Positions 32,995 through 63,980 of a DNA stretch of 64,000 nucleotides are shown here, one piece after another; positions within the stretch are counted from its first letter, which is position 1; each line of letters starts with the position of its first letter. The DNA comes from Nitrospirota bacterium (GTDB lineage: Bacteria; Nitrospinota_A; UBA7883; JACRGQ01). Under the pieces are notes generated by a model. The model was not told the DNA's origin. It worked only from the letters and a program-made list of their open reading frames with translations, and ran no database searches. The stretch covers positions 18,353 through 82,352 of the forward strand of contig JAJRYD010000024.1 in NCBI GenBank assembly GCA_024275955.1, written 5' to 3'. The translations under genes were made by a program, and so were the position numbers.

Positions 32995-33123
32995 GGGGCT
33001 GTTGCCCAATGAGATAAATTTGATTTTCCTACAAATTACCAATTCCTAAAGGCTCCATTTTTAAGAAGTTAGAAAATGAACTTCTCCTTAAAATGCTCAA
33101 AAAACTCTTTTGGAAACAGCCCC
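32995..33123 (-). mobile_element. MITE copy D, inverted orientation
   Basis: 129 bp read on the plus strand from GGGGCTGTTGCC to GGAAACAGCCCC, so the element is reversed relative to copies A-C. Perfect 5 bp target duplication ATAAT (32990-32994 and 33124-33128). It has the best-matched terminal repeats in the window (one mismatch in 12). Confidence 0.92.
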
Positions 33124-58275: not shown

Positions 58276-59690
58276 TTAATGAACTCCAAAAATTTTTTTA
58301 GTCTTTCTGTTCTCTCGTTTGGCGTAAACCAGTTGTAAATATTTTTCAGTTCCGGCCCGTGTAACGCTCCGGTAAGGGCGGCCCTTAACGGCATGTAAAG
58401 ATTTTTTCCTTTTGCTCCGGTTTTGGCAAAAACTTCGGCCGTGAAATCTTCAAACTGTTCTATGGCGCATAACAAAACCGCCGCCTCGGCTACTTTTGCC
58501 GCAGGGAATCCGGCAACAGCCTTTTTAAGTTCGGCGGTAAGGTTTTGTTCAAAAAATATTTTAAGCTCTCTATCAATATCTTTAAAAGTTTCTATATTTT
58601 CTTTGATAGTTTCCACAAGAGAGAGCTGTTTCTCTTTTGTTAGGTTTTCAAACTTTTTAGAGTAGATTTTTATAAAAGGTTTTCCTTTGACGATAAGTTT
58701 TTCAGGGGTCAGTTTTTTTATCTTTATTCCGTTGAGCCATTTAAGTTTTCCCAAGTCGTACTGCGCGCCTCTTAATGCTATACGGTCGATAGAAAACTTC
58801 GTTACCATCTCATTTCTTTTCATCTCTTCGCTTTTATCTTTTGGGCTCCAGCCTATAAGCGCCAGAAAGTTGAATACCGATTCCGGCAGATATCCGTTTT
58901 CTATAAGCTCCGAGATAGAGGAGCCGGTATCCCTTTTCGAAAGTTTTTTTCCTTCCATCGAAAAGATAAGCGGCAGATGGGCATATTGTGGGGGGCTGTA
59001 TCCAAGTGCCTGCATAATCATTATCTGTTTTGGAGTGTTGCTCATATGATCTTCTCCCCTCAGCACATGGGATATCTTCATCATCGCGTCGTCCACCGCG
59101 GCGGCAAGATTGTAAGTAACCGTTTGGTCGGAGCGTAGTACTATAAAATCGCCGATTAACTTTAAATCGGTTTCCACTTTTCCTCTTAGCATATCGTGAT
59201 GCTCCAGCCTCTCGCCGCTAACCGCAAACCTTAATGAGTACGGCTCACTCTCCGCTCGTCTTTTTGTCTCGTCTCTCTCCAGTTCTCTGCATCTGCCGGA
59301 ATAGAGAGGGGGGAGCGATTTTCTGGTAGCCTCTTTGCGGTCTTTTTCGAGCTGTTCTTTGGAGCAAAAGCAGGGGTATATAAGCCGTTGGGCGTAAAGC
59401 TGGTCTATTACCTTGCTATAGAGAGCGGAATGCTGCGACTGGAAGAAAGGGCCTTCATCCCACTTTATTCCTATCCATCCAAGCTCTTCTATCATCAGGT
59501 CGGCGAATTCCATTTTGCTTCTCTTTGTGTCGGTATCTTCCATTCGGAGAATAAGCTTGCCGCCTTTTTTTTTGGCAAAAAGGTAATTGAAGATGGCGAT
59601 ACGCATATTGCCCGCGTGCATAAGGCCGGTGGGCGAAGGAGCAAACCTTACCCGTATATCTTCCCTCTCGCCTTCAGAATATTTTTCCAT
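58272..59690 (-). CDS. gltX: Glutamyl-tRNA synthetase
   Basis: Class I synthetase of 472 residues: VRFAPSPTGLMHAGNMRIAI replaces the HIGH region in the usual GltX form, FCSKEQLEKDRKEA is present, and the KMSKS equivalent is GKKLSKRDTGSSIS. The C-terminal anticodon-binding domain is complete. One copy only is visible; whether it is discriminating for tRNA-Glu or also serves tRNA-Gln cannot be told here. Five bases after ispF and overlapping cysS. Confidence 0.95.
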   Translation of the reverse strand: MEKYSEGEREDIRVRFAPSPTGLMHAGNMRIAIFNYLFAKKKGGKLILRMEDTDTKRSKMEFADLMIEELGWIGIKWDEGPFFQSQHSALYSKVIDQLYAQRLIYPCFCSKEQLEKDRKEATRKSLPPLYSGRCRELERDETKRRAESEPYSLRFAVSGERLEHHDMLRGKVETDLKLIGDFIVLRSDQTVTYNLAAAVDDAMMKISHVLRGEDHMSNTPKQIMIMQALGYSPPQYAHLPLIFSMEGKKLSKRDTGSSISELIENGYLPESVFNFLALIGWSPKDKSEEMKRNEMVTKFSIDRIALRGAQYDLGKLKWLNGIKIKKLTPEKLIVKGKPFIKIYSKKFENLTKEKQLSLVETIKENIETFKDIDRELKIFFEQNLTAELKKAVAGFPAAKVAEAAVLLCAIEQFEDFTAEVFAKTGAKGKNLYMPLRAALTGALHGPELKNIYNWFTPNERTERLKKFLEFIK

Positions 59691-59695
59691 CTCTT

Positions 59696-60175
59696 TTAAG
59701 CGCTCTTTTCGATTAAAAGGACTACCGCCTGCGCCGCAATCCCTTCTTTTCTCCCTGTGTAACCGAGTTTTTCGGTAGTGGTAGCTTTTACGCTAACTTT
59801 ATCTGTCTCCACCCTCAAGGTTTTTGCTATTGTTTCGGCCATCTCTTTTTTGTATGGCGATAGTTTCGGCTCTTCGGCTATAACGGTGCTGTCGAGATTG
59901 CCGACAACGTATCCTTTTTCGTTTATCATCCGCATAACTTTTTCAAGAAGTTTTATAGATGATATCCCTTTGTACCTGTCGTCTGTGGGGGGGAAATATT
60001 CGCCTATATCGCCAAGCGATAAAGCTCCGAGAAGCGCATCGCAAATAGCATGCAAAAGGACATCGGCATCGCTATGCCCTAAAAGCCCCTTTTCATGGCG
60101 GATTTTGACGCCGCCAAGAAAAAGCTCCCCGCCGTCCACGAATCTATGAACATCAAACCCTGTTCCTATTCTCAT
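59696..60175 (-). CDS. ispF: 2-C-methyl-D-erythritol 2,4-cyclodiphosphate synthase
   Basis: IspF catalyses the cyclisation step of the MEP isoprenoid pathway. The 159-residue enzyme has the metal-site start MRIGTGFDVHRF, then LLGHSDADVLLHAICDALLG, DIGEYFPPTDDRYKGISSI, NLDSTVIAEEPKLSPYKKEM, and the end VSVKATTTEKLGYTGRKEGI. Complete. Its 5' end is duplicated about 1.1 kb upstream as the beginning of the haem membrane protein gene. Confidence 0.97.
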   Translation of the reverse strand: MRIGTGFDVHRFVDGGELFLGGVKIRHEKGLLGHSDADVLLHAICDALLGALSLGDIGEYFPPTDDRYKGISSIKLLEKVMRMINEKGYVVGNLDSTVIAEEPKLSPYKKEMAETIAKTLRVETDKVSVKATTTEKLGYTGRKEGIAAQAVVLLIEKSA

Positions 60176-60180
60176 ATCAG
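60071..60180 (-). repeat. Duplicated ispF 5' region (source copy)
   Basis: The first roughly 105 bp of ispF and a few bases before its start codon match 61190-61300 at roughly three quarters of positions, in the same orientation. Shared blocks include GATTTTGA, TTTTCATG and CATATC at the start codon. Confidence 0.8.
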
Positions 60181-60261
60181 CACATCATATCTGGAAACTG
60201 TTCGACTTGCCAATGGTTAAGAAACCGCGCGGTAGTTGCTGGTTTTAACTTTTATGTTTAG

Positions 60262-61293
60262 CTACACTCCCCATCGCCAGAAAGAGATAACAAGAAGCAC
60301 TATGAATACCAGCAGAAGATTTATATAGGCGATTGCGTAGAAGATTTTTTGATAAGTTCCAAGCGGCGGTTTTCCCTCTGCGTCGTATCTGCCGACTGTT
60401 TTAGCCCGCTCCAGCAGTTTTGGGCCGTGCGGCGCGCGTGCTATGGAGCTGGTTAAATCTTCTCCCGCTCGGTGTTTGAAATGTCCTCCACCTTTCCATT
60501 TTGCAAGCGTTGTCACGTCGTACACTTTGCACAAATAGGCTATATATGCCGGCCTGTCTGATTTTCCATCGAACGCGGAAAGGGTCTCAGGGTCGAACAG
60601 CCCACGCTTGGGATGCACTGGGTCTTTTCTTTCTACGCAAAGTTTTGGGCCGAGGAACCGCACTACAAACAGCGCGAAGGAAACCATGATTATATAAAAG
60701 CTGATTTTTGCCAAGAGGAGGTTTCCCCATGCCGTTTCGGTAAGGATGCTAAAGCTTTTGACGCGGGAAAGAAGCATTGTAATGCCGCTTAATCCGACAA
60801 CCACCATGCTGACGGCGCCCATCCTTACTTCCGCGCGCGGCAATCCCTTAGAGGCGTACGCGGGGCGCAGTATTATATGCACATAAATAATAGTTCCAAA
60901 CCAGATGAACGAAGCGAGTATATGAAAATAGCCAACGAGCGATCTTGAAAGAGGCCCTAACGAAAGTAACGGCCCTGCGTTACTGTCGATAGGCCAGAGA
61001 TAACCGCCAGAGGAAAACTTTTCCCCCGTTTCGGATAGCTTCCCCGTTTCTTCGTCAAGATGGCATACGGCGCATTTTTGTTCGGTTTGTTCGGCATATT
61101 CCTGTGTCGCCTCCGCTATGGTTGCCGAGCAGAGAAACGCCAGAGTAAAAACGGCGATAAAAGCTAAACGGAGAAACAGATAGGAGCCACTATGCCCCAA
61201 AAGCCGCTTTTCATGACGGATTTTGATACTGCCGTTTAAAAACCGGCTCCAGTCGATGAACCTGTGAATGTCAAATATTGTTCCTGTTTTCAT
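60262..61293 (-). CDS. Multi-domain haem membrane protein (CXXCH, CopD-like helices, cytochrome b5-like domain) with IspF-derived leader
   Basis: The frame encodes 343 residues in four parts. First is a 38-residue leader (MKTGTIFDIHRFIDWSRFLN, KIRHEKRLLGHSG) homologous to the start of IspF. Next come a signal-like helix (LAFIAVFTLAFLCSATIAEA) and a c-type haem site C74-AVC77-H78. Three CopD-like membrane helices follow (about 115-220). Then a cytochrome b5-like domain (AFDGKSDRPAYIAYLCKVYD; WKGGGHFKHRAGEDL; ARAPHGPKLLERAKTVG) and a last helix. It is probably a redox protein of the inner membrane. The native start is not obvious; no ATG, GTG or TTG precedes the signal helix apart from the IspF-like one. 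Confidence 0.82.
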   Translation of the reverse strand: MKTGTIFDIHRFIDWSRFLNGSIKIRHEKRLLGHSGSYLFLRLAFIAVFTLAFLCSATIAEATQEYAEQTEQKCAVCHLDEETGKLSETGEKFSSGGYLWPIDSNAGPLLSLGPLSRSLVGYFHILASFIWFGTIIYVHIILRPAYASKGLPRAEVRMGAVSMVVVGLSGITMLLSRVKSFSILTETAWGNLLLAKISFYIIMVSFALFVVRFLGPKLCVERKDPVHPKRGLFDPETLSAFDGKSDRPAYIAYLCKVYDVTTLAKWKGGGHFKHRAGEDLTSSIARAPHGPKLLERAKTVGRYDAEGKPPLGTYQKIFYAIAYINLLLVFIVLLVISFWRWGV

Positions 61294-61300
61294 ATCGGGT
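61190..61300 (-). repeat. Duplicated ispF 5' region (copy heading the haem protein gene)
   Basis: Second copy of the ispF head, in frame with the haem membrane protein. At protein level GTIFDIHRFID against GTGFDVHRFVD, and IKIRHEKRLLGHS against VKIRHEKGLLGHS. The match stops where the signal-like helix begins. Confidence 0.8.
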
Positions 61301-61457
61301 TATCATAGCATCGGTTGACTGCTTTCCAATGCTCGCGGTCGGCGCATATGTGTGGGAAGCGTATAGCCGCAACGCATAACACAAAGCTTTGCTGGAAGCG
61401 CCCCACCCAAAACGAATTATGCTGGCTTAACATTTAGAATAAGTTTTTTTAGTGTAT
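61294..61457. other. Spacer upstream of the haem protein gene
   Basis: No ORF or clear promoter recognised up to the start of MITE copy G. Confidence 0.35.
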
Positions 61458-61586
61458 AGGTTTGTTGCCAAATCCTGTAAATTTGATTTTATTTAAAATT
61501 GCCAACCACTAAAATATCTATTTTGAAGAAGTTAAAAGATAGGTCTTTCCTTTAAATATTTCGAAAACTGTTTCGGTAACAGCCCC
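61458..61586 (-). mobile_element. MITE copy G, decayed and inverted
   Basis: About 129 bp with the same layout in reverse: AGGTTTGTTGCC at one end, GGTAACAGCCCC at the other, and internal GAAGAAGTTAAAAGATAGG matching the family core. Many differences from the other copies and flanks TGTAT/TGCAC that only partly match, so it is the oldest copy here. Followed by a decayed scrap of repeat R3 (61625-61655). Confidence 0.75.
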
Positions 61587-61759
61587 TGCACGCCAAAATG
61601 AGATTCCAATCTTTTTGAATCAACCAGAGTTTCTGTGAGCGGAGCAAAGCTAAAGACGAGTAGAGCTAAAAGTGAGAGCGATTGGTATGGCGGAAATTTC
61701 AAAAAATCTTCAAGATTATATTTAGCGATTGGCGAAGGTTGCCTGTACCCTCTTTGGTG

Positions 61760-62614
61760 TTAGCCGATTGTGGAGATAAGCCCGCCGATGAGGCTTTCCC
61801 GGCTTTTGATACCGCTTTGGAGTGAGCTAAGCCCTGTCTCTATAAGAGCTTTGTTTGTGGCAAACGATGCTGTTTCCTTTGCGTAGTCAAGCCCTCTTAT
61901 CTGTGTCTCGGCGCTCAAAAGGTTTTCCTTTGAGACCTGTAGGTTACTAACGGCATTTTGGAACCTTCCTTCCAGCGCGCCTACGTTAGCCCTTGTCTCA
62001 ACCAGCTGCGAGATGGCGCTGTCGAACTGTGTAATGGCGTTACGGGCGTTCTCGGTAGTAGACAGGCTTGTGTTTGCCACGCCAAGCGACTGCGTGTCGG
62101 TATTGCGTATAGAGTCTATAGCTATTCTGTTGGCCGGCCCTGCCTCAGTACCTGCCTGTATCTCCACCTTGTTGGCGGCGCTCGGCCCAAGGTCGCCGTT
62201 TAAAGTTTTCTGTCCGTTAAATTCGGAGCTACCGGATATACGGTCTATCTCCTGTTTTATCTGCGTTAGCTCTCTGCCTATAGCGGTTCGTCCATTTTGG
62301 CTTATTGTTCCGTTGCTCGCCTGTAGCGCCAGCTCTCTTCCACGTGATAGAAGGTTGCCTATACTTCCAAGCCCGCCTTCCGCGGTGCGTAAAAGCGCGG
62401 AACCGGCCGAGACGTTTCTGATAGCTTGGTCGGTAGATTTTATCTGTGCCGAAAGCTGTTCGGCTATGGCAAGGCCGGCGGCATTGTCGGCAGATTTATT
62501 GATGCCCTTGCCGGATGAAAGCCTGGAAAGGTTTTCACCGAGCTTCGAGTTCACCTGAATCAGTTTTGAATGTACACCCGAAAGGCTTTTGCCCAAATCT
62601 ACCGATATTGCCAT
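61760..62614 (-). CDS. fliC: Flagellin
   Basis: A 284-residue flagellin made almost only of the conserved D0/D1 domains. The N-terminal part contains LSRLSSGKGINKSADNAAGL and LAIAEQLSAQIKSTDQAIRN. The C-terminal part contains TRANVGALEGRFQNAVSNL and YAKETASFATNKALIETGLS. The variable centre is only about 50 residues, so the filament surface is minimal. The ATG follows AGGAGG. The promoter is a sigma-70 type. The DUF115 gene elsewhere in the window may modify this protein. Confidence 0.95.
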   Translation of the reverse strand: MAISVDLGKSLSGVHSKLIQVNSKLGENLSRLSSGKGINKSADNAAGLAIAEQLSAQIKSTDQAIRNVSAGSALLRTAEGGLGSIGNLLSRGRELALQASNGTISQNGRTAIGRELTQIKQEIDRISGSSEFNGQKTLNGDLGPSAANKVEIQAGTEAGPANRIAIDSIRNTDTQSLGVANTSLSTTENARNAITQFDSAISQLVETRANVGALEGRFQNAVSNLQVSKENLLSAETQIRGLDYAKETASFATNKALIETGLSSLQSGIKSRESLIGGLISTIG

Positions 62615-62662: not shown

Positions 62663-62735
62663 CCGGCAGCCTTTTCCAACATGAAATGAGTCTGAAATCG
62701 AGAATTGTGTTCAGTATAGGAGGATGCTGATACAA

Positions 62736-63980
62736 ATGGATGAATTCGAGATTAAGAGATTGAAAGATATAGAGCAATTTCTGGATGGAGCGGTTAAATC
62801 ACACCCTGTGCTGGAATGCGGTAAGGACGAGGTTTATGCGTGGATAGAGCGGACTCTCAGGCGATTCGATTATCTTCGTGTGAGCAAGAAAGCTAAAGGG
62901 GTAGTGCGTAGATATATCGCACAGTTAAGCGGATATTCACGCCAGCAGGTGACACGGTTGATTGCTCAATACCGCCAGACGAATCGATTACACCGCCGTC
63001 ATCGGACAGTCAACGGTTTTAAGAGCAAGTACACGCCTGCCGATATAAAACTTCTGGCAGGGGTCGATAAACTAGTAGACGATGTTTCCGGCACGACAAC
63101 CAAAGCCTACTGCCATCGCATGTACGACCTGTTTAACGATGCAGAATATATCCGCCTAAAAGATATTTCTGTTTCCCACATCTACAACCTGCGTGGCGGC
63201 AAAGTGTATCAACGAATCAGGAAGAAGTTCACCAAAACCGAAGGCGTGAAGATAAGTATAGGCAAACGGTGCAAGCCTTCTACCAATGGTGAGCCGGGTT
63301 ACCTGCGGATTGATTCTGCACATCAGGGCGATATGGACGGTAAAAAGTCAGTTTATCACATCAATGCAGTTGACCAAGAGACCCAGTGGGAAGTCGTAAT
63401 AACCATTGAACAGATAAAAGGAAAGTTCATGATTCCCGCATTAAAATCGGTGCTGGAGCAGATTCCTTTTGTCGTAAAAGGAGTTCATGCAGATAACGGA
63501 AGCGAATATATCAATCATCTTGTAGCAAAACTTTTAAACGAGTTGGCGATAGAGTTGACCAAATCACGGGCTCGCCACTCCAACGACAATGCTTTGGCAG
63601 AGAGCAAGAATAACTCTGTTGTACGCAAAACTTTTGGTTATGTTTACATCCCTAAAAAGTTTGCATCGTTGATGAACAAGTTTAACGAAAAAGATCTGAA
63701 CCCCTGCTTGAACTTTCATCGTCCTTGCCACTTTCCTACTGTTGAGATTGATAGTAAAGGCAAAGAGAGAAAACGGTACCGGCAAGAAGATATGATGACA
63801 CCTTATGAAAAGTTTAAATCAATGCCAAACGCAGAGCAGTATTTGAAAGATGGAATTACCTTCGAGATGTTGGAGGCTGAGGCTATGAAAGAGTCGGATA
63901 TGAAAGCGTGGGAGAAGATGCAAAAGGCTAGAAGCAGGATGTTTGATATAATCTTTGCAGAGCCTACAGAGGCGGCATAA
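62736..63980 (+). CDS. DDE integrase-type (rve) transposase
   Basis: A 414-residue transposase with an N-terminal helix-turn-helix region (GVVRRYIAQLSGYSRQQVTRL), a linker, and an rve catalytic core. The acidic triad is visible as YLRIDSAHQGD, GVHADNGSEYINH and DNALAESKNNSVV. The C-terminus is basic and helical. It is a single complete ORF without frameshift, so probably active. An ATG 12 bp upstream touches AGGAGG directly; the chosen ATG is 12 bases from it. The left end of the element must lie within the 109 bp spacer shared with flagellin. The right end is outside the window. IS family not assigned. Confidence 0.85.
   Translation: MDEFEIKRLKDIEQFLDGAVKSHPVLECGKDEVYAWIERTLRRFDYLRVSKKAKGVVRRYIAQLSGYSRQQVTRLIAQYRQTNRLHRRHRTVNGFKSKYTPADIKLLAGVDKLVDDVSGTTTKAYCHRMYDLFNDAEYIRLKDISVSHIYNLRGGKVYQRIRKKFTKTEGVKISIGKRCKPSTNGEPGYLRIDSAHQGDMDGKKSVYHINAVDQETQWEVVITIEQIKGKFMIPALKSVLEQIPFVVKGVHADNGSEYINHLVAKLLNELAIELTKSRARHSNDNALAESKNNSVVRKTFGYVYIPKKFASLMNKFNEKDLNPCLNFHRPCHFPTVEIDSKGKERKRYRQEDMMTPYEKFKSMPNAEQYLKDGITFEMLEAEAMKESDMKAWEKMQKARSRMFDIIFAEPTEAA

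Follow-up and report, generated by a model that had tools for sequence, protein, structure and literature searches.

The haem protein gene and its neighbours

We analysed a window of 64,000 nucleotides (bases 18353–82352 of contig 11) from a 2.45-Mb assembly that is 98% complete and comprises 56 contigs. Here, a gene for a haem membrane protein lies between a flagellin gene and ispF. An earlier note placed the haem open reading frame at 60262–61293, with ispF just downstream. The coordinates and the reading frame are correct: the haem frame is at 61293–60262 and ispF at 60175–59696, both on the minus strand. The main features are listed below.

59696–60175, minus strand: ispF, the intact putative donor gene (159 aa; TIGR00151 3.9e-68; Pfam YgbB 7.4e-71)
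60262–61293, minus strand: haem membrane protein gene (343 aa; Pfam CopD 6.5e-10, Cyt-b5 3.2e-5; structure model)
61060–61074, minus strand: CAVCH motif for haem c attachment (residues 74–78, invariant in orthologues)
61108–61188, minus strand: signal-peptide-like helix (residues 36–62) with an A-E-A cleavage-like site, native to the haem gene
61189–61293, minus strand: ispF-derived head, haem codons 1–35 (DNA and protein alignment)
61760–62614, minus strand: flagellin gene (best match, in sister genus G002, is directly upstream of ispF there)

Reading from its N-terminus, the haem protein has a leader and a signal helix, then CxxCH; a membrane part resembling CopD and a cytochrome b5-like domain follow, and a transmembrane helix comes last. 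Both domains score above their Pfam cut-offs (CopD 39.8 bits against 32.1; Cyt-b5 24.3 bits against 23.7) and the b5 domain matches structure 6nzx at 0.9 A. The CxxCH motif follows the signal helix, and C74, C77 and H78 are invariant in 41 sequences. We rejected assignment to the CopD copper homeostasis proteins (NF033808) because the score was 31.6 bits, compared to an equivalog score of 195. The closest known proteins combine CopD (PF05425) with a cytochrome b5-like domain (PF00173) and occur in Nitrospirota, Nitrospinota and Desulfuromonadota; the bodies are 40–55% identical and the CxxCH motif is shared. A literature search on CopD/cytochrome b5 proteins returned nothing useful. Positions 59600–62000 gave no Rfam match and no tandem array was found. 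An IS-type transposase (62724–63980) adjoins the flagellin gene; its rve integrase core scores slightly under the Pfam cut-off.

The haem gene starts with a copy of the ispF 5' end

Codons 1–35 of the haem gene (61293–61189, minus strand) match codons 1–35 of ispF (60175–60071, minus strand), with 21 of the 35 residues identical. At the DNA level, the two genes share a direct repeat of 118 nt without gaps and with 73% identity (60072–60189 and 61190–61307), which spans codon 35 to the −10 box; no other repeat in the area is as strong. The earlier note had described about 110 bp of DNA similarity beginning before the start codon, which agrees well. It had also paired 38 residues of the haem protein with 36 of IspF; the homology stands, but the matched length is 35 residues in each protein. 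The local DNA alignment scored 62, while 500 shuffled sequences had a mean of 11.9, a standard deviation of 1.8 and a maximum of 21. Hence, the similarity is far above chance for DNA, as it is for protein. An assembly error could be suspected in a genome of 56 contigs. However, a 118-bp repeat with 73% identity cannot arise from misjoined identical reads, and the haem gene and ispF are within one 82-kb contig. We regard chance similarity or misassembly as having a negligible probability. When the whole genome was queried with the IspF protein, ispF (E 7e-102) and the haem leader (E 8e-9) were the only matches; no further copies of the leader were found in the genome.

Identity per 15 nt is 13/15 for codons 31–35, then 8/15, then 3–5/15 beyond. 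Hence, similarity stops at codon 35–36. The structure model places the predicted signal helix at residues 35–56, consistent with the claim that similarity ends where this helix begins. Upstream of the ATG, the match is clear up to the −10 box (position −14); above this, the alignment is not significant alone, its score being equalled by 63 of 500 shuffles. Within the leader, similarity is lowest at 61234–61248 (haem codons 16–20). This stretch fits a compensated +1/−1 frameshift relative to ispF, and a gapped alignment here lines up TTTTT.

The leader is homologous to the start of IspF (2-C-methyl-D-erythritol 2,4-cyclodiphosphate synthase, TIGR00151), and the rest of the domain is absent. We take the IspF metal ligands to be D8, H10 and H42 (E. 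coli numbering). The leader retains D8 and H10 and lacks the part bearing H42. With residues 1–35 in place of a whole YgbB domain and its ligands, it is not an IspF. Two glycines conserved in IspF, G6 and G30, are also lost.

Orthologues begin at the signal helix

Orthologues were retrieved with an alignment query, since a query with the single protein gave no matches. The set comprised ~80 loci from Nitrospirota, Nitrospinota, Desulfuromonadota and other phyla, plus relatives from the same class, with N-termini read or aligned. All start a few residues ahead of the signal helix and have an ordinary short signal peptide. The IspF-like leader is in none of the ~80 loci or class relatives, and no ispF was near the haem gene in the orthologue flanks examined. 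The earlier note had proposed this comparison as a check; relatives at the level of family, class, Nitrospirota and Desulfuromonadota do start at the helix. In a phylogenetic tree, the haem protein from the window groups with same-class relatives (support 93/84), which suggests that the gene is probably native rather than recently acquired. At one G002 locus (L010), the match to the haem orthologue continues past an in-frame TAG upstream of the signal helix; this stretch is not homologous to the leader.

The copied segment includes a predicted leaderless promoter

The duplicated DNA extends upstream of the start codon. Promoter-like elements of the two genes are as follows.

60184–60189, minus strand: ispF −10 box TATGAT, 8 nt before the ispF ATG
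60208–60213, minus strand: ispF −35-like box TTGGCA, 18 nt from the −10 box
61302–61307, minus strand: captured −10 box TATGAT, 8 nt before the haem ATG
61324–61329, minus strand: captured −35-like box TTGGAA, 16 nt from the −10 box, identified by layout (alignment insignificant there)

Hence, ispF starts with TTGGCA-N18-TATGAT-N8-ATG and the haem gene with TTGGAA-N16-TATGAT-N8-ATG. In the family, all 8 ispF genes with a readable start have TATCAT or TATGAT 6–10 nt before the start and a TTG-type −35 box 17–18 nt above. The layout TTGnnn-N16–18-TATsAT-N6–10-[AG]TG is therefore common to these 8 genes, the ispF of the window and the haem gene. Its chance occurrence is ~0.001 per shuffled upstream region, for a pattern drawn up after viewing the sequences. 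A looser TTG-TANNNT pattern was found at 3 of 50 open reading frames in the window: the haem gene, ispF and one doubtful frame. The homology of the −35 elements is assigned by layout, because the alignment above the −10 box is insignificant alone. In the family (loci L025–L032 and L044), the leaderless-type ispF promoter is kept though the remaining upstream DNA has diverged.

A TANNNT motif ~10–12 bp before the start marks bacterial leaderless genes (PMC3160421), and this marker has experimental support in Deinococcus (PMC12340547). The haem gene carries such a motif and lacks a Shine-Dalgarno sequence. Hence, the layout is apparently the signature of a leaderless mRNA. The copied piece would thus include the predicted promoter of ispF, which the earlier note had missed and which is new here. 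The −10 box and start are duplicated, and ispF is intact, as in promoter capture; the −35 box is included by layout only. Judged from the sequences compared, we consider the lineage-specific chimeric gene head, with its predicted promoter and start codon, to be real.

Initiation of translation

Two further features bear on where translation begins.

61198–61200, minus strand: TTG codon 32, the sole other in-frame start before CxxCH, in captured DNA
61300–61305, minus strand: in-frame stops TGA and TAA, shortly before the leader ATG

Because of these stops, and because both ATG1 and TTG32 are in captured DNA, translation of the haem gene from a standard start is not possible without the ispF-derived piece. 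The proposal that the duplicated head supplies the start codon is thus borne out for either start. One alternative is that TTG32 is used, so that the ispF-like codons 1–31 are an untranslated relic, serving as promoter and 5' UTR only, ahead of an ordinary signal peptide. TTG32 is in frame, and the n-region before the hydrophobic helix would then be short, as in orthologues. Drift at G6 and G30 also indicates that the leader has not preserved the IspF fold. Against this, TTG32 is preceded by TCATGAAAAGCGGCTT, which has no Shine-Dalgarno sequence. Such a sequence is equally absent at ATG1, but the −10 box before ATG1 is spaced as in leaderless genes. Moreover, the frame is open throughout, and TTG32 also derives from captured DNA. 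We consider use of TTG32 unlikely. The predicted leaderless promoter makes ATG1 the likelier start, in which case the leader would be translated. The open frame was rejected as proof of translation, as 53% of neutral ispF drifts remain open.

An example of the leader peptide is LLGHSGSYLFLR. In the AlphaFold model, residues 1–33 have pLDDT below 50 and residues 35–56 form a helix. The 35-residue leader is thus predicted to be disordered; it is basic and would act as a long n-region.

Source and age of the copy

Residue R26 is common to the leader and the ispF of the same genome, and is not in the other 20 ispF genes compared; all 8 same-family relatives have P at this position. The leader is also closer to its own ispF (21/35) than to other ispF genes compared (10–18/35). 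Taken together, these comparisons indicate that the copy is from the ispF of its own lineage, made after the split from sister genera. Alternatively, the leader could be what is left of another, independent ispF, horizontally acquired for example, that was cut by arrival of the haem gene. The leader and the resident ispF do differ at 14 of 35 residues, more than this ispF differs from that of some relatives (24/35 identical). However, the leader is nearest to the resident ispF and shares R26 with it alone, and the two genes share the TATGAT-N8-ATG start. We consider an independent second ispF quite improbable, and favour the resident ispF as the source.

Codon comparison of the leader with ispF gave a Ka of 0.27 and a Ks of 0.71, so the copy is old. 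As a measure of selection on the leader, the Ka/Ks ratio is confounded by selection on ispF itself. A further possibility is a separate function for the leader, which could, for example, bind IspF or, at the membrane, couple the level of the haem protein to isoprenoid synthesis. The leader does retain DIHR-like, KIRHEK and LLGHS stretches, and Ka/Ks is below 1. However, beyond this confounding by ispF constraint, the leader is predicted to be unstructured and G6 and G30 are lost. A function of this kind is very improbable, and we make no claim for the leader beyond initiation.

Gene order and the proposed origin

In the sister genus G002, the gene order is flagellin-ispF-gltX. The flagellin upstream of ispF in G002 is the most like that in the window (51% identity; the next is 42%). 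In the window, the haem gene stands between the two. Both G002 and G006 have the haem gene beside terB and leuS, names assigned from the sequences themselves. In the genome studied here, terB and leuS are on other contigs, without the haem gene. The changed order means that either the haem gene moved, or ispF and flagellin moved around it. Relocation of the haem gene, which the earlier note did not propose, is the simpler option.

We think it likely that a relocated haem gene gained a promoter, a leaderless start and a 35-residue leader by partial duplication of ispF. In outline, a haem c/cytochrome b5 membrane-protein gene (terB/leuS-linked in two family relatives) would have arrived between flagellin and ispF. 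A duplicated ispF 5' end, its remainder replaced or lost, would have been joined in frame just ahead of the signal helix. This piece would comprise the −35/−10 promoter, an ATG with which the mRNA begins or nearly begins, and codons 1–35; it would drive transcription and provide the start codon. Ribosomes would start at the 5' ATG to make an unstructured basic leader, serving as the long n-region of the export signal. The leader would be cleaved off together with that signal, probably near the AEA/TQ site, and only ATQEYAEQTEQK-type N-termini would be expected for the mature protein.

Relation to known promoter captures

In promoter capture by duplication, a neighbour's promoter is set before another gene, as here; examples are citT (as cited in PMC4718724) and activation of transferred genes (PMC11111574). 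In contrast to these, the piece here adds a start codon and 35 codons, which yields an in-frame chimera. Unlike laboratory captures, this is an old natural state, ~28% diverged, and the reciprocal duplicate is gone. Like the leaderless genes described previously (PMC3160421, PMC12340547), the haem gene has a −10 box 6–10 nt before the start and no Shine-Dalgarno sequence; here, the assignment is a prediction from sequence and the signal was taken from another gene. The principle is known, and a natural, aged, leaderless variant is unusual. A literature search for natural chimeras of the same kind gave nothing relevant. The locus could be a natural, fixed case in which one partial duplication (~140 bp) captured an entire leaderless initiation unit, at the cost of an N-terminal leader, though we hold this with somewhat less than even confidence. 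The promoter and start codon of a leaderless gene form one compact piece, so one duplication can move both the transcription and translation starts. A relocated gene would then be switchable in one step, a small duplication bringing both starts and a basic n-region. If this is true and general, many chimeric heads should be expected in bacteria with leaderless genes, and would form a searchable class. The locus would also be a natural, aged counterpart to an event known mostly as short-lived in the laboratory.

Route of duplication and a nearby repeat

Two routes fit, because heads in direct repeat flank the haem gene. Either the ispF 5' end was duplicated and joined in frame to the haem gene after its relocation, or the segment from the haem gene to the ispF head was duplicated in tandem and the upstream haem copy then lost, as in known promoter captures. 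A simple tandem duplication predicts traces of that lost copy. None were found (score 17, against a shuffle maximum of 18), and neither route is favoured. Eight residues at 61581–61604 match the C-terminal ISFWRWG, but this match was rejected (E 2.9; it overlaps the end of a 124-bp repeat).

This repeat, an interspersed element of ~124 bp at 61463–61586, has terminal inverted repeats GGGGCTGTTGCCGAAA ... TTTGGCAACAGCCCC and resembles a MITE. It lies ~130 bp upstream and may have taken part in the rearrangement; no link to the breakpoints was found. The element has 44 matches in the genome at 70–89%, and the window contains at least 6 more diverged copies (near 33000, 19520, 41642, 43433, 30950 and 2375).
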